Origin: a virus
Reading direction: 5' to 3' (one strand)
DNA: 21,452 nt
IMG/VR virus record: IMGVR_UViG_3300036860_000713
Span: 1 to 21,452 of that record
Shown here: piece by piece, positions 2,580 through 21,452 of the stretch
How positions within the stretch are numbered: the first letter of the stretch is position 1
How the letters are laid out: every line of letters begins with the position of its first letter
The notes under the pieces: model-generated
What the model was told of the DNA's origin: nothing
Databases searched by the model: none
Seen by the model: only the letters and a program-made list of their open reading frames with translations
Made by a program: the position numbers and the translations under genes

Positions 2580-3259
2580 AGGGTGAGGGCCTCCATCACC
2601 AACCCCTCCTGGTCCTGCAGCTCCTCCCTGCGCAGCCCTGTCTTGCGAATGATGGCGTGGCCACGCTCATCCTCCACGAACTGCACCGCCACGACGTTGT
2701 CACTGTCCACGAACTCCTCCAGCCACTGGTCGATGGCCTCCCTGATCTGGGGGAAGTAGTAGTCATCGAGGATCACGAAGCCCCGCTGGTGCAGGATGGG
2801 CCACACGTTCATGAGGTCATTGAGCACCCCGTGCTTGTCGTGGTTGCCGTCGACGTGGATGAGGTCAAAGGTCCCCAGCTTGGCCGGGATGCCGTCGAAG
2901 GAGTTCCACCGCAGCGCCCGACAGCGCGCGTGGAACCCAACGATGCGGAAGTTGTCGTTGGCCTGCTGGCACGACCCGGCGTGGTAGCTCTCATCGTCGA
3001 TGCCCAGGTACTCGAAGCGCTCGACGCCCGCCGCCAGCGCTGCCGCGCAGCAGACGATGCCCGTGTAGCCGAACCGCACGCCAATCTCCAGCATGTGTCG
3101 TGGGCGGAACTTGTGGACTAGGCCACCGTAGACCGCGAAGTACCGGTCGATGATCTCCTGCGGGTACCGGTCACCCAGCGGGAAGGCCACCTGGTCCACC
3201 AGCCGACGATCAAATTTCCACCACTCCGGCTCGGTCAGGAACTCCACCTCGACAACCAA
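2576..3259 (-). CDS. Class I SAM-dependent methyltransferase (paralogue of the gene at 3802-4464)
   Basis: A Rossmann-fold methyltransferase of the Methyltransf_24-like kind. Motif I is MLEIGVRFGYTG (about residues 56-67), the acidic loop is FDLIHVDGNHDKHG (131-144), and a later strand ends GFVILDDY (160-167). The TTG start at 3259 is supported by GGGAGG with a 5 nt spacer; the start lies 12 nt after the previous stop. It shares motif I almost word for word with the gene at 3802-4464 (EIGVRFGY in both), and both have the VDG(N/D)H and VDD/LDDY positions, so the two are diverged duplicates flanking the P-loop gene. Members of this group methylate sugars or other small acceptors; a sugar O-methyltransferase is the natural guess beside two GT9 genes. 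Its end overlaps the next start. Confidence 0.87.
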   Translation of the reverse strand: MVVEVEFLTEPEWWKFDRRLVDQVAFPLGDRYPQEIIDRYFAVYGGLVHKFRPRHMLEIGVRFGYTGIVCCAAALAAGVERFEYLGIDDESYHAGSCQQANDNFRIVGFHARCRALRWNSFDGIPAKLGTFDLIHVDGNHDKHGVLNDLMNVWPILHQRGFVILDDYYFPQIREAIDQWLEEFVDSDNVVAVQFVEDERGHAIIRKTGLRREELQDQEGLVMEALTL

Positions 3260-3271
3260 GTCAGCCTCCCC

Positions 3272-3802
3272 TCAGAACGGCAGCAGCAGCCCTGCCAGCC
3301 CGTACTTCTCATTGGCGTTGACGACCTCGACGGTTGGCGGCGGCAGCCCGAGCTGCGCAAACAGGTGTCCCCGCACCTCCGGCACCGTCACGAAGAGCCC
3401 GTACGGCACCACGACCAGGGTCGTCTTCAGCCAGCTCGCCAGCTCGTAGGCCAGCTTGGCCGCCACCAGGATCGTCTGCCGCGCCGCCTCGAAGGTGCGC
3501 CCCTCGTAGTTCTTCAACTGCCCTGCCACCACGAAGTCGCTGCGCCGAGAGATGAGGATGGGCGTCACCCGGTACCCCGCTGCCTTGAGCAGCCCCGCGA
3601 TGGCAAGCACGTCCGGCACCAGCAGCCCATTGGGCACGCTGCGCGCAAGTGCGAGCTTGCTTGGCTTGTCGCGGAAGCACAGGTCATCGGTGCTCTCACC
3701 GGCGTCCGGGTCACCGTAGCACCCTGCCGAGCAGAGGCACCGCCGGAAGAACCTCGTGCCGGAGTTCTCGGGGCCAAGCACAAAGTAGGCACGCTTTCCC
3801 AT
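3272..3802 (-). CDS. P-loop sulfotransferase-like protein (176 aa)
   Basis: The N-terminus carries YFVLGPENSGTRFFRR (about residues 6-21). The GPxxSGTR loop resembles the phosphosulfate-binding loop of sulfotransferases rather than a Walker A GxxxxGK(S/T), because there is no lysine-Ser/Thr pair. Downstream are a Cys-rich, Gly-Asp segment (CLCSAGCYGDPDAG, 23-36), a strand-loop VTPILISRRSDFVVAGQLKN (79-98) where sulfotransferases carry RDP/RS-type PAPS contacts, and a helical C-terminal half. At 176 aa it is shorter than most sulfotransferases (about 250-300 aa). The ATG start shares one base with the previous TGA (TGATG). It is sandwiched between two paralogous methyltransferases, which supports a glycan-modifying role. 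A small-molecule kinase-like function is the main alternative. Confidence 0.65.
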   Translation of the reverse strand: MGKRAYFVLGPENSGTRFFRRCLCSAGCYGDPDAGESTDDLCFRDKPSKLALARSVPNGLLVPDVLAIAGLLKAAGYRVTPILISRRSDFVVAGQLKNYEGRTFEAARQTILVAAKLAYELASWLKTTLVVVPYGLFVTVPEVRGHLFAQLGLPPPTVEVVNANEKYGLAGLLLPF

Positions 3803-4464
3803 CAGCCTGCGTTCCGCTGCAGGAGCGCCAGCCCACGCTCATTCTCGTGCCACTGGAACGCCTGCAACTCCGCAAGGTGCTCGTCACGGAACTGCTCCAC
3901 CGCGCGCTTCACGTCGGTCATCCCCGTGTCGTCTACGATCACAACCGCACCAGGGGCAGTCAGGGGCCAGATGTTGACAAGGTCGCGGTAGCACCCCTCG
4001 TAGGAGTGGTCCCCGTCAACGTTGACAAGGTCATAGACTCCAAGGTACTGACACACCTTCTCGGGCAGCCCCGCTCGTGTGTCGTGGCGAAACAGCTCAA
4101 CACCAACGCTTGGCGTCTGGGCTGCGAAGTTCGCGCTGGCAACCTCGTTGCTTGAGACTGCTGGATCTTCAGGGTGACTGAAGAAGCAAGCGTCGATTCC
4201 ATCGTAGCCGAGGATCCACACCTCTGGATCGTAATTTGGGCGTCCTGCAAGGGCACCCAGGCACATCGCAATGCCGGAGTAACCGAAGCGCACCCCGATC
4301 TCCAGGATCTCCTCGGGCCGGTACTTCCTGGCAATGCCCGCGTAATCCGCGTAATACGTGTCATCTGCCCAGCGGCCGCCAAAGATGGTGATGTCCGAGG
4401 GCACTGCAAAGCTGGAGATGGGCACTGGGTACCGCTCGCTGACGTGGAAGATGTCGTGTCTCAC
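3802..4464 (-). CDS. Class I SAM-dependent methyltransferase (220 aa)
   Basis: The start is the GTG at 4464, overlapping the TGA of the upstream gene as GTGA and preceded by GGAG with a 5 nt spacer. The frame is open for another 50 codons upstream, but that part lies inside the neighbour. Motif I is ILEIGVRFGYSGI (about residues 53-65). The acidic/catalytic stretch is YDLVNVDGDHSYEGC (144-158) and a following strand reads VVIVDDTG (174-181), the typical Methyltransf_24 arrangement. It is a paralogue of the gene at 2576-3259. In context (GT9, zinc-ribbon methyltransferase, P-loop protein, second methyltransferase, GT9) a sugar methyltransferase is likely. No signal peptide or membrane segment, so it should act in the cytosol. 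Confidence 0.87.
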   Translation of the reverse strand: MRHDIFHVSERYPVPISSFAVPSDITIFGGRWADDTYYADYAGIARKYRPEEILEIGVRFGYSGIAMCLGALAGRPNYDPEVWILGYDGIDACFFSHPEDPAVSSNEVASANFAAQTPSVGVELFRHDTRAGLPEKVCQYLGVYDLVNVDGDHSYEGCYRDLVNIWPLTAPGAVVIVDDTGMTDVKRAVEQFRDEHLAELQAFQWHENERGLALLQRNAG

Positions 4465-5243
4465 AGCCGCTCCAGCCTCAGGACACAGGTCATGATGTTC
4501 GGCACTCCATCCGGCAGTGTCCCGCGAATGTGGTCCTCCGGGTGCTCGGCGTAGACGAGCCGCGCCTGCACCTCCGGCGTCGTGAAGATCAGCTCGAACG
4601 ACCGGGGGTTCCACCAGTAGTGGTGGTGCTCCCCAGGTCGAAAGTGCTTCCAGGGTCGACTGGGGAAGCTCCGGGGAGCCCGGGGCACGCTGATCATCAG
4701 CCAGTCAGTGCTGAGCGCTGCCGCTCGTGGCGCGGCCAGGTCCTCGAAGTGCTCCAGGGAGTCGAAGAACGTGATGACCCGGTAGCGCTCCTCCGGCGGC
4801 AGTGGGTCTGTCGGCAGCGCCACGCGCCGCACACCGGGGTACTCGGTGGGGTTGACGTCATTCCCCACGGCAGCCCACCCGACGGCAGCGGCGGCGCGAA
4901 TGAAGCTGCCATTCCCGTACCCCACGTCCAGGAGCCGGCCCCGGCGAAGCTGCTCGCCGGTGGCAGCACACTCGTGCAGGCTCAGGACGTGCCACAACAC
5001 GCGCAGGCGCAGCTCGCTCATCTGCTGCATGGCTGGGTACCGATCATAGCGCTCTGCCACGTAGGCACGGTCATAGACCGCAGTCGTGTGTCGGTCAGCA
5101 GCACAGTAGGTGAAGCAGTGGTAGCAGTAGCCAAGTCCCCGCTGGTGGGGGTACAGCAAGTCCCGAGCACAGGCGGGGCAGCGCTCGCGCTGCTCAGCCC
5201 CGCAGGAGGAACTCGGCGATGGCGCTGGTGTCGAGCTGGTCAA
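4461..5243 (-). CDS. Zinc-ribbon class I SAM methyltransferase (260 aa)
   Basis: The preferred start is TTG at 5243, because AGGAG with a 6 nt spacer stands in front of it; an upstream ATG at 5261 has no ribosome binding site. With this start the gene overlaps the upstream gene by 50 nt. The N-terminus has a zinc-ribbon pattern: CPAC (residues 22-25), CYHC (40-43) and another Cys at 47. The methyltransferase domain follows with motif I LLDVGYGNGSF (104-114) and FFDSLEHFED (159-168), the Methyltransf_23 hallmark, then a His-rich loop RPGEHHHYWW. A zinc ribbon ahead of a Methyltransf_23 domain is a known layout among sugar C-methyltransferase and glycan-cluster proteins. It is coupled to both neighbours. 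Confidence 0.85.
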   Translation of the reverse strand: MTSSTPAPSPSSSCGAEQRERCPACARDLLYPHQRGLGYCYHCFTYCAADRHTTAVYDRAYVAERYDRYPAMQQMSELRLRVLWHVLSLHECAATGEQLRRGRLLDVGYGNGSFIRAAAAVGWAAVGNDVNPTEYPGVRRVALPTDPLPPEERYRVITFFDSLEHFEDLAAPRAAALSTDWLMISVPRAPRSFPSRPWKHFRPGEHHHYWWNPRSFELIFTTPEVQARLVYAEHPEDHIRGTLPDGVPNIMTCVLRLERL

Positions 5244-6075
5244 ATTGTCGCTCCTGACCATGGTCGAAGGGATACGTGAATACCCTATTTTCTGGGTGTC
5301 GCAGCCCGTAGGTGTACTTTGAGTCCAGCGTCGGCAGGTGGCGCGTCATCAGGGGCTCGGGCACCACCAGCACCGTGCGACGCCGGTGGTCCCAGGCAGC
5401 GCGGATGAGGTTTGAGTGCGCCCCGACAAAGGCGTCACAATTGGCCACGAGGTGGTAGGTCACCCGAATGTTGAGCTGATCAATCAGGTCGGTGAGGTTT
5501 GGTGCGGCTGGGCACAGCTCCTGTGTGTACTTGTGGCCGCGGTCATGGTTCCGGCCAATCACCAGGAGGCTGGCCGCCGGTGCGAGGTGCTGCAGGGCTG
5601 CAGCCAGCCGTGCGATGGCAGCCACGTCAAAGCCATCGCGGTCAGAGAGCCCCGCGTAGGGCTGGGCCACGACGCAGGGGCGCCGCGTCAGGAGTTGACC
5701 AAGCAGGTGACGCTCACCCTCCAGCAGGTGGATCTGCGGTTGTTGAAGGTCAAGTTGGCGCACCCCCGCGTCATGCAGCAGGTCATTGCGCGAGAGCGGG
5801 ATGAAGCCATCCGCAGTGGGGGTGTTCCACCGGTGCTGCAGCTCGGGCGTGGGTGGTGCCCAGGGCTCCTCCACGACCTCATGGACGTGGGGGTGACCGT
5901 GGAACAGGTCCGTGGCAGCACCAGCGCAGTGACACTGGGAGTAGATGCGCACGCGCGCGCCATTGCGCTCCACGAGACTGGCCAGCTTGCGAAAGCTGGG
6001 TTCGTGAAGCCAGTCCCACCAGAGGTCACCCACGCCACCGCCAAGCGCACCAAAGACCTTGAGCTGGTCAGCCAA
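5194..6075 (-). CDS. GT9-like (GT-B) glycosyltransferase, divergent
   Basis: The TTG start at 6075 is set by AGGAGG with a 5 nt spacer, which itself overlaps the previous stop. The N-terminus has VFGALGGGVGDLWWDWL (residues 7-23), the GGxGD loop of GT9 enzymes, then a strand-helix pattern and HPHVHEVVEE (61-70), where family members have a hP-x-V-D-E-V-I element. The second half has CVVAQPYAGLSDRDGFD (134-150), LLVIGRN (170-176) and FVGAHSNLIRAAWDHRRRTV (216-235), matching the donor-site region where typical GT9 proteins read DSGxxHxA. The usual DTG/DSG and H are replaced by HSN and R, so it may use another donor or be partly degenerate in activity. At 293 aa it is a little short. It leads the glycan cassette. 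Confidence 0.72.
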   Translation of the reverse strand: MADQLKVFGALGGGVGDLWWDWLHEPSFRKLASLVERNGARVRIYSQCHCAGAATDLFHGHPHVHEVVEEPWAPPTPELQHRWNTPTADGFIPLSRNDLLHDAGVRQLDLQQPQIHLLEGERHLLGQLLTRRPCVVAQPYAGLSDRDGFDVAAIARLAAALQHLAPAASLLVIGRNHDRGHKYTQELCPAAPNLTDLIDQLNIRVTYHLVANCDAFVGAHSNLIRAAWDHRRRTVLVVPEPLMTRHLPTLDSKYTYGLRHPENRVFTYPFDHGQERQFDQLDTSAIAEFLLRG

Positions 6076-6085
6076 GCAAGCCTCC

Positions 6086-6511
6086 TCAATACGAGGAACC
6101 GAACCACTGTATCACTCTAACAACGTAGAAGACCATCGAAATCTCGAAGCTGTCGCAGCTTCCTCGAATTGGGACTGGGTGGAAGGCTGCCTGTCCTGGG
6201 GCAAAGAGCACCTCGAAGCGATTCGGGAACCAGTCCCGCAGCTCCCAGGTCGTGCCCTGACTTCGAAACTTAGTCCAGAGGTCTTGACATGTCACATAGT
6301 CGGTGACCTCAGCCTCCAGGTTGATCACGAAGTCCGCCACCTGCAGCCCACGGTCCTGGTGGATGACGGAGCCGGAGAGGACCCGGTGGCTGCTGCCGCG
6401 CTTGGCATTCTGGAAGGGGTCGTACCGGGTGGGGTCGACGGAGAAGGTGGTGATGTTGCCGCCGTCGAGGCTGCGGAGGGACATGCTGCTGGCTGCAAGT
6501 GGTGTCGGCAC
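6086..6511 (-). CDS. Small tail-like protein, first gene behind the cassette promoter
   Basis: From GTG at 6511 the product has 141 residues; from the in-frame ATG at 6484 it has 132. Neither start has a Shine-Dalgarno site. A promoter -10 box ends 7 nt before the GTG, so the mRNA could begin at the GTG itself (leaderless). The protein has no signal or membrane segment and looks mostly beta: segments HRVLSGSVIHQDRGLQVADF, VINLEAEVTDYVTCQDLW and FEISMVFYVVRVIQWF. Its position right after the tape measure is where distal-tail or tail-tip genes usually start, and the strand-rich makeup fits, but I do not recognise the family. Its stop lies in the ribosome binding site of the glycosyltransferase gene that follows. 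Confidence 0.7.
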   Translation of the reverse strand: MPTPLAASSMSLRSLDGGNITTFSVDPTRYDPFQNAKRGSSHRVLSGSVIHQDRGLQVADFVINLEAEVTDYVTCQDLWTKFRSQGTTWELRDWFPNRFEVLFAPGQAAFHPVPIRGSCDSFEISMVFYVVRVIQWFGSSY

Positions 6512-15455: not shown

Positions 15456-18400
15456 CTACGGCACCTCAACGCCGGTGTCACCCGGCACGATGGTGATGGT
15501 GCCCATGGTGTCACCCACGACCACCCGGTGCGCTGCACGGGACATCACACCCTGCTTCTGGGTGAAGGTGTCCGGCAGCGTCAGGAGGGGCGCGATGTAG
15601 TCGATGTAGGGGGCGAACACGTACCCCGTGTCCGACCAGTCGGCACCCCGGCGGATGACCAGGATGGTGTTCTGGTTCACCCCTGTCCAGAAGCTCGTCT
15701 GGTAGACCTTGATGTCAGCGCTGGTGCCAGCCAGCCAGGGCGTCACGGCCAGGCCGGGGTAGACCTGCGGATTGACCCCCGTCGGCTGCACCGGCTGCCG
15801 GTAGGCTGCGCCCAACCGGAGGATGGCCTGCGGCCCGGCGATGACGTGCGTCGCGTTGCCGTGGCGCTTGGAGAAGATGTCCATGCTCACCGCGTCGATG
15901 TAGCGCGGCAGGTACTCCGCCCACTCCTTCTGCGTGTAGCCAGTGGGAGCGTTGGTGCCATAGAAGCGTGCGCTGGCCGTGGCGCCCGCGACCATCTCGT
16001 TGAGCACGGTGAGGTTCCACTCCAGGGCAATCTCCCGGGAGAGGGCTGACATCAGCTCGGTGTTCACGTCCAGCCCATGGTAGGCCCGCAGGTCCTGCAG
16101 CTCCTCAATCGTGTTGATGGAGGTGAGGGCCTTGGTCGTCGCCGTCACCGACACGGAGGCCAGCCGGAGCTGGATCTTCGCCGCCTCGTCGCACTCAGCC
16201 GCGCGATCCGCGAAGGACGAGCTGAAGGACGAGCTGCGGTCCATGAACATCCGGTTGGAGATCGTGGCCCCCGACTGGTCCACCACGTCCATGCCCGGCA
16301 CTGGGCACCGGAACGCATTCAGGAAGAAGATGCGCCCGTCAGGCCGGTCCATCGGCTGGATAGAGGCGATCTCCGGCGCGATGAGCTGCGGGTAGACCGC
16401 CCGGACCAGCGGGAAGATGAACAGCGCGCTGGAGGGCGCGCCACCGGCTGCCACCGAGGTGGTGCAGTCAGCGCAGGCCTGGTCCATCCATGCATCCTTG
16501 ACCTGGATGGGGTCGTAGCCCTGGTAGAGCCGCACAAACGCCGTCAGCGCAGCAGGGCCATTCCAGTTGTCATCCTGGTGCTGGGCGATGTTCAGCAGGA
16601 TCTGCCGCAGTTGGCGCCGCCGGGTCTTCACCGAGTCGGGTGCGTGCACCGGCGCACCTGTCTCATCATCCTGCCGGATGAAGCTCTGTGGGTCGTAGAG
16701 GACCGTGTCGTCCACGTCCTTGACCAGGAAGTCAATCATCTGCCGGGGGGTCTTCGGGCCAGGGCGCTCCCCAGGGTCCTGCTGGACCTGGAAGCCGTGC
16801 GCCAACTGCGGGCGCTCCTTGTACATCGAGAGCACCGCCGGCAGCATGCGCTCGGAGTGCGCCTCCAGCTCCGCGATGGACTTGCACTGCCCCTCGTTGA
16901 GGATGTTGCGGTAGGAGTTGAGCCACTGTTGCGGGAGCTTGTGCTCCGTGCGCGCCTGCTCCAGGAGCTGCCGCTTGCGCTCCTCCAGCAGGAGGGGCAT
17001 CATCCGCTCCTGCTGCGCAGCCACCGCGGTGAGGGTAGCCACGAAGTCCGGGGCTGCCTGCTGCAGTGCTGCTGTGGCTGGTGCGGTAACCGGGACATCC
17101 AGCGCGGCGGTGGCAGCGCCCGCCGCAGGGGGTGTCGGGGCGGGCGGGGGTGCGGCAAGCTTCGCCAGCGTCTCGGTGATCTGCGCGAGGGTCGCAGCCT
17201 GCGCCTGGACCTGCTGCGACAGGGTTTCGATCTCTTTCATGTCGTGCTCCTCAGCAGTAAGGTCGGCCTGCTGCGCCATCTCGTGCGTGGTGATGGTCGC
17301 GCCCGGCGAGGCGCCGGACCCGACAGCGTCGAATGTGCGGCAGCGGTACCCACGCTGGATCACCAACGCATCCTGGTACCGCTCGCCGGTGGTGGGGTTG
17401 ACCCAGTCGCCCTGCTTGCGCGTGCCCTTGCCCCGGGAGGAGACGTCCACCTTGGCATCGTGCTGCAGGAGCATCTGCAGGTTCTGCCCAGAGGGCACCG
17501 TGGGCAGCACGCGACCAGCGCCCATCAGCCGGTCACCCTCAAGCCACACCTCATCCCAGAGGATGCAGGAGCGGTCCAGGGATGACTCACCCGGCGGTGG
17601 GTGGTTGGACTCGCCGAGGAGCGCCCCCTGCTCGGCGGCTGTCTGCAAGAAGGGGAGGTTGTCCTCCCACACCTGCGTCGGGTAGACCTCCCCCATGGCG
17701 TTCAGGACGTTCCCGACGGTGAGGCAGGCTCGAATGTGCATGACTCCCGTCTGCTTGTCCACCTCCACCTGCTCAAGCTCAAGCGCGCAGGTCTGGACGA
17801 GGTCCTCGTCCCCGCCCGGCGGCGGCTGCCCCTGGGCCAGCCAGGTGGGCGTGGTGGTCCACTGGGGGTCCTGGTTCAAGGCCCCCGTGAGGTCAGGCGC
17901 CACGCTCTGCTTGTCACCGGGCCACTCGGCGTCGTGCGACTTGTAGAGCGACTTGAGCTTGCCCAGCGCCGCCGACTTGTCACCGCCGGAGGCTGCAACC
18001 TTGTTGCCCCGAAAGCCCTTGGTCAGGGCTGCGTAGGCACGCCCAAGCTGCGGCACCGTCACCTTGCCCGGCGTCTCCTCCACGCGCACCTTCCAGGTCG
18101 AGGGGAGGTCAGGGTCGCCGATGATGAGGTAGGCACCTCGGGAGAACTGCTGACCGTTGTCGGTCTTGAACTTGGCCTCCTGGTCGACCACGGTCTGAGT
18201 CCCGCCGATGTTCAGGCCCTCGCGCTCTGGTGTCTCCATCGCCTCCCCCTCATGCGGCACCACGACGGTCAGGACCTCGACCGGCTGGGCGTCGCCCAGT
18301 GCCACCTCAAACGTCGTCGGGTTGAACGTGTAGTCAACCTTCCAGTAGTCAGTGTCCTCATCGCCCTCGTCCAGGGAGCAGCAGACGGCGAAGTTGGGGT

Positions 18401-18950
18401 AGACTGCCAGCACGTACCCGTACTCGCCCAGGTACTCGTCGCCCTCATCCCGCACGGCGCAGCACACCCGCCGGATGCGGTGGTCCAGGGAGCCGGGAAA
18501 GTCATCGGTGTGAGGCGCACACGGCATTGGATTCGCGTATGACTGCACAAGCGCCTCGAAGTCAAAGTACGGGACACCGAGCCCCTCAAGCTGCCGCAGG
18601 AGTCGCAAGTCCTGTGTCGGGTTGGCTGCCACCTGCGCCAGCAGGTCGTTGACCGTGCGCTGGGCAGGCAGCGCCTCGGGGTTGCGGCGCCAGTGCTCCT
18701 GGTAGAGCCGCTGCGTGTCCAGGAGGAGCTGCTGGGTGGTCAGATCAGACTGGCTGGCCTTGACCCACTTGCCACCCTTCTTCTTGAAGACGCGCTTCAC
18801 CGCCGCCCAGGCCACTTTGAAGGCCCGCTCCTCATTGCCACCGTAGGTGCGGTGAGCGGCATTGAACGCAGCGCGAAAGATGCGTTGACCCCGCTTCGGC
18901 AGGGCACCCTTGACACCCTCTGGCAGCTCGCTGGTCCTGGCGTAGGGCAA
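15456..18950 (-). CDS. Head polyprotein: ChaB-like / S80-type prohead protease / scaffold / gp23-like major capsid (1164 aa)
   Basis: One frame carries several head functions. Residues 1-65 look ChaB-like (MPYARTSELPEGVK, VAWAAVKRVF, KGGKWVKA), which also supports the TTG start. Residues 160-345 contain a strand-rich region (DYWKVDYTF at 201-209) and a WKVRV...AYAALTKGFRGNK module like those before some phage head proteases. Residues 400-555 form a T4 gp21/S80-like protease: GALLGESNHP with His450, VDVSSRGKGT with Ser504/505, then RTFDAVGSGASPG. Residues 571-670 are helical with an Ala/Pro run, scaffold-like. Residues about 680-1164 match gp23-type capsid proteins: FPLVRAVYPQLIAPEIASIQ (846-865) then PMDRPDGRIFF. 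Normally these are separate genes. The whole would assemble and then cut the prohead. Confidence 0.88.
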   Translation of the reverse strand: MPYARTSELPEGVKGALPKRGQRIFRAAFNAAHRTYGGNEERAFKVAWAAVKRVFKKKGGKWVKASQSDLTTQQLLLDTQRLYQEHWRRNPEALPAQRTVNDLLAQVAANPTQDLRLLRQLEGLGVPYFDFEALVQSYANPMPCAPHTDDFPGSLDHRIRRVCCAVRDEGDEYLGEYGYVLAVYPNFAVCCSLDEGDEDTDYWKVDYTFNPTTFEVALGDAQPVEVLTVVVPHEGEAMETPEREGLNIGGTQTVVDQEAKFKTDNGQQFSRGAYLIIGDPDLPSTWKVRVEETPGKVTVPQLGRAYAALTKGFRGNKVAASGGDKSAALGKLKSLYKSHDAEWPGDKQSVAPDLTGALNQDPQWTTTPTWLAQGQPPPGGDEDLVQTCALELEQVEVDKQTGVMHIRACLTVGNVLNAMGEVYPTQVWEDNLPFLQTAAEQGALLGESNHPPPGESSLDRSCILWDEVWLEGDRLMGAGRVLPTVPSGQNLQMLLQHDAKVDVSSRGKGTRKQGDWVNPTTGERYQDALVIQRGYRCRTFDAVGSGASPGATITTHEMAQQADLTAEEHDMKEIETLSQQVQAQAATLAQITETLAKLAAPPPAPTPPAAGAATAALDVPVTAPATAALQQAAPDFVATLTAVAAQQERMMPLLLEERKRQLLEQARTEHKLPQQWLNSYRNILNEGQCKSIAELEAHSERMLPAVLSMYKERPQLAHGFQVQQDPGERPGPKTPRQMIDFLVKDVDDTVLYDPQSFIRQDDETGAPVHAPDSVKTRRRQLRQILLNIAQHQDDNWNGPAALTAFVRLYQGYDPIQVKDAWMDQACADCTTSVAAGGAPSSALFIFPLVRAVYPQLIAPEIASIQPMDRPDGRIFFLNAFRCPVPGMDVVDQSGATISNRMFMDRSSSFSSSFADRAAECDEAAKIQLRLASVSVTATTKALTSINTIEELQDLRAYHGLDVNTELMSALSREIALEWNLTVLNEMVAGATASARFYGTNAPTGYTQKEWAEYLPRYIDAVSMDIFSKRHGNATHVIAGPQAILRLGAAYRQPVQPTGVNPQVYPGLAVTPWLAGTSADIKVYQTSFWTGVNQNTILVIRRGADWSDTGYVFAPYIDYIAPLLTLPDTFTQKQGVMSRAAHRVVVGDTMGTITIVPGDTGVEVP
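17238..17252 (-). promoter_or_regulatory. Internal ribosome binding site and start inside the head polyprotein
   Basis: GAGGAG (17252-17247), a 6 nt spacer and ATG (17240-17238) stand in frame at Met571, exactly where the protease ends and the scaffold-like helix begins (MKEIETLSQQ). Starting here would make a 594-residue scaffold-capsid protein without the protease, in the excess that a capsid needs. The bases also encode Glu-Glu, so chance cannot be ruled out. Confidence 0.5.
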
Positions 18951-20365: not shown

Positions 20366-21452
20366 TCATTTGAGAAAAATTTGACAACCCTCGAAGACGG
20401 GATCGTCTGCTGCGGTCGTGCTCTTCGCCTGCAGCTTGTAAATCTTCACGCTGTTCTGCAGCGCCGCTGGGATGGCGGTGAGTGCGCTGGCGTTGCGGCC
20501 ACTCACCACGTCCAGGGAGATCAGCACGTTGGCAGTCCCGACCTCCAGCACCTGCACCGTCTGCGTGCCGGTCCCAATCTTGTTCCAGAGCACTGCCAGG
20601 CGCACCTGGGTCTTGCCGTTGGTGTCAATCTGCACGCTCTTCCCATCGGCGTTGGTGTTCACGTAGATGTCCACGAACGATGCGCCGATGTTGGTCTTGG
20701 TGCTGGTGACCTCCCAGTAGGCCACCAGGTCCTCCCGCGCGCCCGGTGCCCCGGGCGGTGCGACCCAAGTCTGGTCACCGCGCAGGAACTTGGTGGTGTC
20801 CGGTGTCCCAGTGCCGAGCTGCGCAGTCGGCACCAGGGAGTTGCTGCCCAGGCCAGCGTACCCACTGGCAGCCCCCTTGTTGGCCGTCGCCTCCACCGTG
20901 CCGTCGTGCAGGCTAGCCCCGTGGCTCGTCGGCGCCCGGGAGTTCGTGTTCCGCGCGTCGCCGTCGGTGACGTACTTGTTCCCCGACCCCGGCGTGCCGC
21001 TGGTGCCCGCCAGGGCGCTCTTCTCGCCACTGCTCGGGTCGTTCGCGTTGGAGTGCGTGGCAAAGTTCAGGGAGAGCTTGCTCTCCGCGATGGCTGCCGC
21101 GCTGGCAACGTCCGCATTCTCCACCAGCTTCGCGGCGGAGTCCTCAGCCCCGGCAGTGACGTGCCGGAAGCCCGTGCCGGTGGGTGGGGTGCCACCAGCG
21201 GGCGGTGTCGCCCACATCTGGTCGCCGCGCAGGAACTTGCTGGAGTCCAGGCTCCCACTGCCCAGCTTCGTCGCGGGCAGCAGGGTAGGGTCCTGCTCCA
21301 GCACCACCTTGTCCACAGGCGACCAGGTGGCTGCCCCGGTGGCAGTGCTGGTGCAGGAATAGAGCTGGCCCGTCACGACGTTCAGCCACTTGGAGCCGAC
21401 CTCGTACCCCTGTGTGCCGTCGTTGCCCACAACGGGTGCGACGGTGGCTAAG
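20366..21452 (-). CDS. Tail fibre-like protein, C-terminal part (5' end outside window)
   Basis: The frame is open to the right edge; a GTG at 21430 is internal, since meaningful sequence (LATVAPVVGNDGTQGYEVG) continues before it, so the real start lies beyond the window. The opening GNDGTQGYEVGSKWLNVVTG followed by LYSCTSTATGAATW is the common tail-fibre element '(D/N)D..GY.vGS.W.n..tG..Y.C......A.W'. Two copies of a fibre repeat follow, KFLRGDQMWATPPAG and KFLRGDQTWVAPPGA, with a shared lead-in. The last 125 residues form a strand-rich domain (VAYWEVTSTKTNIGASFVDI then AVLWNKIGTGTQTVQVLEVG) that may be a receptor-binding or trimerising tip. The protein would be on the virion surface. Confidence 0.83.
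   Translation of the reverse strand, partial: LATVAPVVGNDGTQGYEVGSKWLNVVTGQLYSCTSTATGAATWSPVDKVVLEQDPTLLPATKLGSGSLDSSKFLRGDQMWATPPAGGTPPTGTGFRHVTAGAEDSAAKLVENADVASAAAIAESKLSLNFATHSNANDPSSGEKSALAGTSGTPGSGNKYVTDGDARNTNSRAPTSHGASLHDGTVEATANKGAASGYAGLGSNSLVPTAQLGTGTPDTTKFLRGDQTWVAPPGAPGAREDLVAYWEVTSTKTNIGASFVDIYVNTNADGKSVQIDTNGKTQVRLAVLWNKIGTGTQTVQVLEVGTANVLISLDVVSGRNASALTAIPAALQNSVKIYKLQAKSTTAADDPVFEGCQIFLK
20744..20839 (-). repeat. Fibre repeat, copy 2
   Basis: Encodes VPTAQLGTGTPDTTKFLRGD followed by QTWVAPPGA. It matches copy 1 at 21191-21286 (LPATKLGSGSLDSSKFLRGD, QMWATPPAG) at most positions, including a near-identical DNA core in the FLRGDQ codons. Confidence 0.7.
21191..21286 (-). repeat. 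Fibre repeat, copy 1
   Basis: Encodes the LPATKLGSGSLDSSKFLRGD module followed by QMWATPPAG. The FLRGDxxW core is a common tail-fibre and collar motif; the second copy lies about 447 bp further along the same gene. Confidence 0.7.

Follow-up and report, generated by a model that had tools for sequence, protein, structure and literature searches.

Can a T4-type head maturation protease, a scaffold-like region and a gp23-type shell protein be produced as a single polypeptide, and if so, how would such a chain assemble and mature a phage head? This question is raised by a gene in the first 21,452 nucleotides (here, the window) of the IMG/VR virus record IMGVR_UViG_3300036860_000713. On the minus strand at 15456..18950, an open reading frame (ORF) runs for 1164 codons without an internal stop, exactly as a sequence-only reading of the window had described it. 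We find that in this uncultured phage the ORF joins a protease of the T4 gp21 type to a capsid protein of the T4 gp23 type, that the same arrangement recurs in a single clade of related phages, and that its product is probably a capsid precursor polyprotein.

One reading frame joins a gp21-type protease to a gp23-type capsid protein

Three Pfam families match the encoded protein above their curated cut-offs: ChaB at the N terminus, Peptidase_S77 (PF03420) at residues 404-516 (E = 2.7e-9; 37.3 bits against a cut-off of 27), and Gp23 (PF07068) at residues 901-1143 (E = 5e-35; 122 bits against a cut-off of 24.4). Similarly, PHROG 207 (head maturation protease) matches residues 391-650 (E = 3e-26) and PHROG 138 (major head protein) matches residues 918-1140 (E = 1e-28), while profile comparisons align the protease with the T4 gp21 structure 5JBL (E = 5e-27) and the capsid part with T4 gp23 (E = 1e-50). 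By every sequence and fold test that we ran, the protease and capsid parts belong to the S77 and Gp23 families.

The motifs named in the sequence-only reading are all present, in a protein whose Pfam and PHROG matches lie well above chance: LGESNHP, VDVSSRG and FDAVGSG contain the predicted catalytic residues H450, S504 and D541, and FPLVRAVYPQLIAPEIASIQ occupies residues 846-865. The order of the three catalytic residues is that of the triad H-77, S-153, D-178 in SPN3US gp245 (PMC5694885). Overall, the proposed fusion of a T4-type protease and a gp23-type shell protein stands, with three amendments. Pfam places the protease in S77 rather than S80, which is the family of phiKZ gp175 (PMC5694885); the capsid domain begins at about residue 825 rather than 680, with the preceding residues 561-824 forming a linker or scaffold-like region; and the N-terminal ChaB domain had been overlooked (Table 1).

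Table 1 Features of the window, with residue numbers referring to the 1164-residue fused protein.
Feature	Position	Strand	Details
Fused head polyprotein gene	15456..18950	(-)	1164 residues, 127.6 kDa, TTG start
ChaB domain, residues 1-65	18756..18950	(-)	Pfam PF06150 match at residues 9-64, E = 1.4e-18
N-terminal region, residues 66-386, no assigned function	17793..18755	(-)	Residues 254-338 match PHROG 19463 (unknown)
Peptidase_S77 / T4 gp21-like protease domain, residues 387-560	17271..17792	(-)	Pfam, PHROG, profile, AlphaFold2, Foldseek
Helical linker / scaffold-like region, residues 561-824	16479..17270	(-)	Helices in AlphaFold2 model; conserved in fused clade
gp23-type major capsid domain, residues 825-1164	15459..16478	(-)	Pfam PF07068, profile, Foldseek
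H450, predicted catalytic residue	17601..17603	(-)	Invariant in 34 homologues
S504, predicted catalytic nucleophile	17439..17441	(-)	Invariant in 34 homologues
D541, predicted third catalytic residue	17328..17330	(-)	Invariant in 34 homologues
Q386 (LVQ^T), candidate cleavage position at the protease N terminus	17793..17795	(-)	Alignments; T4 gp21 has LIE-9 here (motif PMC9026906)
Q824, candidate capsid maturation cleavage site	16479..16481	(-)	[LM]xQ conserved in fused clade
GAGGAG, Shine-Dalgarno-like, 6 nt before internal ATG	17247..17252	(-)	
Internal ATG (M571), protease/scaffold junction	17238..17240	(-)	Most fused lineages and the protease-scaffold relatives have start-like sites here
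Predicted nested product, residues 571-1164, scaffold-like plus capsid	15459..17240	(-)	Putative; 594 residues, 64.9 kDa
Immunoglobulin (Ig)-type major tail protein	12312-11689	(-)	PHROG 807
Two overlapping ORFs, likely tail assembly chaperones	11686-11162 and 11315-10791	(-)	Between major tail protein and tape-measure-like ORF

The fusion is conserved and forms a single clade

A 109,530-bp contig from this phage includes the whole window with two mismatches over 21,452 bp, and the fused frame is open there as well. Among metagenomic phages, a search for the same domain order identified one-frame protease-linker-capsid genes in 12 further IMG/VR loci (L013, L095, L094, L093, L096-L100, L109/L110 and L114), of which L013 is truncated at its 5' end and L095 lies on the same contig as L014. 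Together with the window they make up eight lineages, several of which come from different metagenome data sets, and their capsid parts are roughly 40-60% identical to that of the window. Between L094 and L095, the ratio of nonsynonymous to synonymous substitution rates (dN/dS) is 0.03-0.11 in every segment, linkers included, indicating purifying selection on the segments tested, and position-specific guanine-plus-cytosine content is uniform and continuous along the whole window ORF. Although all of these sequences are metagenomic contigs, an assembly error that artificially joined separate genes through a lost stop or a frameshift can be excluded for practical purposes, because the frame is open on the longer contig and recurs in seven further lineages from several separate data sets, with purifying selection across the linkers and uninterrupted coding periodicity.

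A survey of 81 loci containing both domains revealed 12 with one ORF, 13 with a long protease-scaffold ORF and a separate capsid gene, and 56 with a short protease ORF and a separate capsid gene; these counts do not represent frequencies, because many of the loci are near-copies. The one-ORF type forms a single clade in both the capsid tree (100/100) and the protease tree (100/98), and by these trees the fusion has a single origin. Moreover, a search of six fused records placed every Gp23 match and the one protease match inside the fused ORF, with no second gp23-type or gp21-type gene detectable; in these records no other source of shell protein is therefore visible.

Outside these metagenomic loci, no place covering 80% of the query was found among 50,697 phage records, and the annotated top matches that we inspected have separate head genes. 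LR756511 and Salicola SCTP-2, the closest matches in the annotated collection, were considered as fusions and rejected, as each has three separate ORFs. Short conserved peptides, a probe that distant relatives may escape, were used in two scans across 84,980 bacterial and archaeal genomes and returned neither a relative nor a fused prophage, and a plasmid search returned ChaB matches only.

The N-terminal module varies within the fused clade. ChaB is found in the window, L093 and L095 lineages, and L098 and L114 have neither ChaB nor DUF6582, which replaces ChaB at residues 14-92 of the L110 fused protein. This distribution suggests that N-terminal modules are exchangeable among fused lineages. 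At the level of records, ChaB is present in the fusions of G002 and G003 and absent from those of G005, G010 and G011; we rejected it as a marker of the fusion, as half of the fused records that we searched lack it.

Predicted structures recover the gp21 and gp23 folds

An AlphaFold2 model of residues 380-575, built from 34 sequences, has a mean predicted local distance difference test score (pLDDT) of 86.8. Structure comparisons with Foldseek match this model to T4 gp21 (5JBL; E = 1.1e-8, probability 1.00), with herpesvirus maturation proteases as the next matches. In the model of residues 571-1164, long helices precede the capsid domain, and the best Foldseek matches are T4 gp23 structures (E = 4e-14). 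The protease part is thus modeled with the gp21/herpes assemblin fold and the capsid part with an HK97-type fold nearest to that of T4 gp23, recovering both of the folds that had been expected from sequence.

The helices of the second model also bear out the proposed in-frame helical linker, which is conserved within the fused clade. Its assignment as a scaffold is based on position and helicity and not on homology, and searches of Pfam and PHROG returned no scaffold family match for the fused protein.

Candidate cleavage sites carry Gln in place of Glu

The cleavage motif of T4 gp21 is L/I-x-E, with the cut after the Glu (PMC9026906), and the enzyme's active site stays blocked by its first nine residues as long as these are still attached (PMC9958956). 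In our alignments, the N-terminal position of the protease reads LIE^T or FLE^T in several relatives and mostly LVQ^T, LVQ^S or LIQ^T in the fused clade, with less certain placement in L096, L109 and L114. Similarly, the capsid boundary carries [LM]-x-Q in all eight fused lineages, whereas most relatives with separate genes show a hydrophobic-x-E sequence about 15-25 residues before a P-x-x-R-R motif. Cleavage after Q824 would leave a capsid domain of 340 residues and 36.7 kDa. Another recurrent Gln, Q560 in the window, directly follows the protease domain. The simplest reading of these alignments is that the P1 preference shifted from Glu to Gln in the fused clade.

A start-like site recurs at the protease/scaffold junction

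The Shine-Dalgarno (SD) sequence at the protease/scaffold junction is the best or near-best in most lineages; it is moderate in the fused genes and strong in the relatives, and the protease-scaffold genes of L015, L016, L020 and L017 contain a strong SD and an ATG at the beginning of the scaffold. A combined interval test of the junction start gave p = 1.4e-4 for seven fused lineages and p = 2e-7 for five relatives, values that ignore shared ancestry. No conserved separate start was seen right before the capsid domain in the fused genes. Overall, these patterns suggest a likely nested start at the junction, which would yield a scaffold-capsid product. An internal start occurs in T4 gene 21, where a second start at Met45 gives short gp21s (PMC9026906).

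A model for assembly and self-processing

We propose, with a probability of about 0.65, that the fused gene belongs to the T4 head lineage and encodes a capsid precursor polyprotein, with a nested start and self-cleavage at domain boundaries. The fusion with its conservation and single origin, the two folds, the predicted catalytic residues and the lack of a second detectable gp23-type or gp21-type gene in the records searched come from computation, whereas the course of assembly, the nested start, and the cleavage sites with their Gln specificity are inferred. The full-length chain would comprise, from N to C terminus, ChaB and an unassigned module, the gp21-type serine protease, the helical scaffold-like stretch and the gp23-type, HK97-fold shell domain. 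Shell domains would assemble around the gp20-type portal, with the helical stretch serving as a tethered internal scaffold like the HK97 delta domain, and the protease would enter the prohead through its attachment to shell subunits. A second ribosome start would probably make most subunits scaffold-capsid only (594 residues), leaving the full-length chain as a minority and bringing the protease:capsid ratio back to far less than 1:1. Once the head is assembled, the protease may free itself and the shell by cuts after Q386, Q824 and possibly near Q560. The cut at Q386 would correspond to the activation cut of T4 gp21 after LIE-9, and the N-terminal module, taking the place of the T4 propeptide, would leave with it. 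More tentatively, at somewhat under even odds, we envisage a polyprotein that processes itself, belongs to the T4/herpes-assemblin lineage and occurs in phages whose tails are siphovirus-like; two starts would set the protease dose, and the S77 P1 preference would have changed together with its sites from Glu to Gln in the fused clade.

Several observations weigh against the proposed precursor. Confidence in the model of residues 571-1164 is only moderate (pLDDT 75; predicted template modeling score (pTM) 0.51). A comparison by hhalign between the linker and the scaffold region of the relatives was not significant (E = 0.044, probability 1.2%), and on this result we rejected homology of the linker with the scaffold part of protease-scaffold relatives. 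The cleavage sites come from alignment, the conserved Gln residues may be structural, and characterized S77/S80 enzymes cut after Glu (PMC5694885). An alternative, which we consider possible but less likely than not, is that the fusion is as described and its protease keeps a T4-like Glu specificity, with structural Gln residues and cuts at other Glu sites. Known family members have this specificity (PMC5694885, PMC9026906), and [LI]xE triplets are present in the window linker, for example starting at residues 591, 654, 662, 684 and 692. However, the window contains no Glu from residue 763 to the capsid core, and the uniform [LM]xQ of the eight fused lineages occupies the place where relatives with separate genes mostly have Glu.

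The internal start in the window also counts against the proposed precursor, as its SD ranks only 5 of 78 (interval p = 0.249). In addition, L114 lacks a good junction start, and SD strength in the fused genes equals the codon-usage expectation for the encoded residues (synonymous-codon test, p 0.19-0.71). All three observations would suit a pure 1:1 polyprotein, made solely as the full-length chain, so that each shell subunit bears a protease, with the excess cleared at maturation and the internal start unused. We consider this unlikely: most fused lineages share a start-like site at this junction, which is strong in the protease-scaffold relatives, and a 1:1 ratio would far exceed the protease load of T4, with about 55 gp21 copies per prohead (PMC9958956). 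The precursor with a nested start remains our preferred reading.

Tail genes and genome surroundings

All nine related records searched encode a T4-type (gp20-type) portal. In L115, the T4-type portal gene of a relative (2650-6327 (-); a 1225-residue ORF) contains two stretches matching intein splicing domains, together with HNH endonuclease matches. The sheath family PF04984 and the gp25 wedge family PF04965 had no match in the nine records, which may be fragments and in which diverged sheaths may escape detection.

The siphovirus-like tail genes that the sequence-only reading had noted are also present next to the fusion: a major tail protein, likely frameshifted chaperones and a 1389-residue ORF that follows them in the tape-measure position. 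Where the two ORFs of the likely chaperones overlap, a slippery heptamer, T TTT TTC (11288-11282 (-)), lies in the phase that a -1 shift requires, and the chaperones are likely made by -1 frameshifting. As a set, these genes fit a siphovirus-like tail.

Elsewhere in the window, an endolysin/amidase-like gene at 20050-19466 (-) (PHROG 1493, E = 3e-20) lies immediately upstream of the fusion, among the head genes. A direct repeat of ~88 bp, about 80% identical, is found at 20752-20838 and 21199-21285 inside one ORF upstream of the fusion, and several ORFs at 5261-2576 (-) with methyltransferase-like matches (PHROG 6564, 2675) possibly represent a split or duplicated methyltransferase. Among the relatives, an ORF upstream of the protease-scaffold gene in L017 (1-1887 (+)) has a weak, below-cut-off intein splicing match. 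Locus L103 (G001, 74223-77291 (-)) encodes a phage DNA polymerase III alpha that has a PHP domain and lies close to a D5-type primase/helicase.

Comparison with known systems

A close parallel is T4 gp21/gp22/gp23, which the fused protein resembles in its protease fold, the positions of the catalytic triad, its capsid family and fold, and the protease-scaffold-capsid order; a T4-type portal accompanies it. These head proteins come from three separate genes in T4 and in the annotated T4-like matches that we inspected, whereas the window has one gene, which adds a ChaB module and carries putative L-x-Q instead of L/I-x-E sites. Like the fused gene, lambda C/Nu3 holds protease and scaffold in one frame, with a junction start that could make a shorter product, and the relatives that most resemble it are L015, L016, L020 and L017. 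The lambda protease belongs to a family other than S77, and the lambda capsid gene is separate, whereas the nested product of the window would include the capsid. In lambda, C and Nu3 overlap (reference 43 in PMC8508860).

Intermediate in layout are the PHROG 207 protease-scaffold genes (L015, L016, L017, L020 and others), which share a homologous protease and capsid and fuse the protease to a helical C-terminal part; they differ in having a separate capsid gene with its own strong SD and Glu at the candidate cleavage positions. HK97 and T5 capsid proteins are not known to belong to the gp23 family by sequence. As is proposed for the fused protein, HK97 gp5 and its T5 counterpart tether a scaffold, the delta domain, to the capsid N terminus, from which it is removed by proteolysis (PMC10275583), but HK97 encodes its protease in a gene of its own (PMC8508860).

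A protease, scaffold and major capsid protein in a single gene have been proposed for gp5 of Pseudomonas phage MD8 and for MD8-like phages (PMC8508860), and a three-part fusion is therefore not unprecedented in kind. The MD8 protease resembles the lambda/ClpP type and its capsid is Mu-like (PMC8508860), whereas the window combines an S77 (gp21) protease with a gp23 capsid, and the two fusions probably arose independently in different lineages. We found no published T4-type three-part fusion in the open-access literature searched.

Together with its relatives, the window displays a graded series of fusion within one head lineage, from three genes, through protease-scaffold plus capsid, to all in one, the last step having a single origin. 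This series raises the questions of how a prohead tolerates a shell-tethered protease and whether a change of P1 from Glu to Gln is open to S77 proteases. Moreover, the occurrence of T4-type heads with siphovirus-like tail genes matters for capsid-based classification and for surveys that use gp23 as a marker. The protease-scaffold-capsid layout itself had already been proposed; what appears new is the same layout built from T4-type families beside siphovirus-like tail genes.

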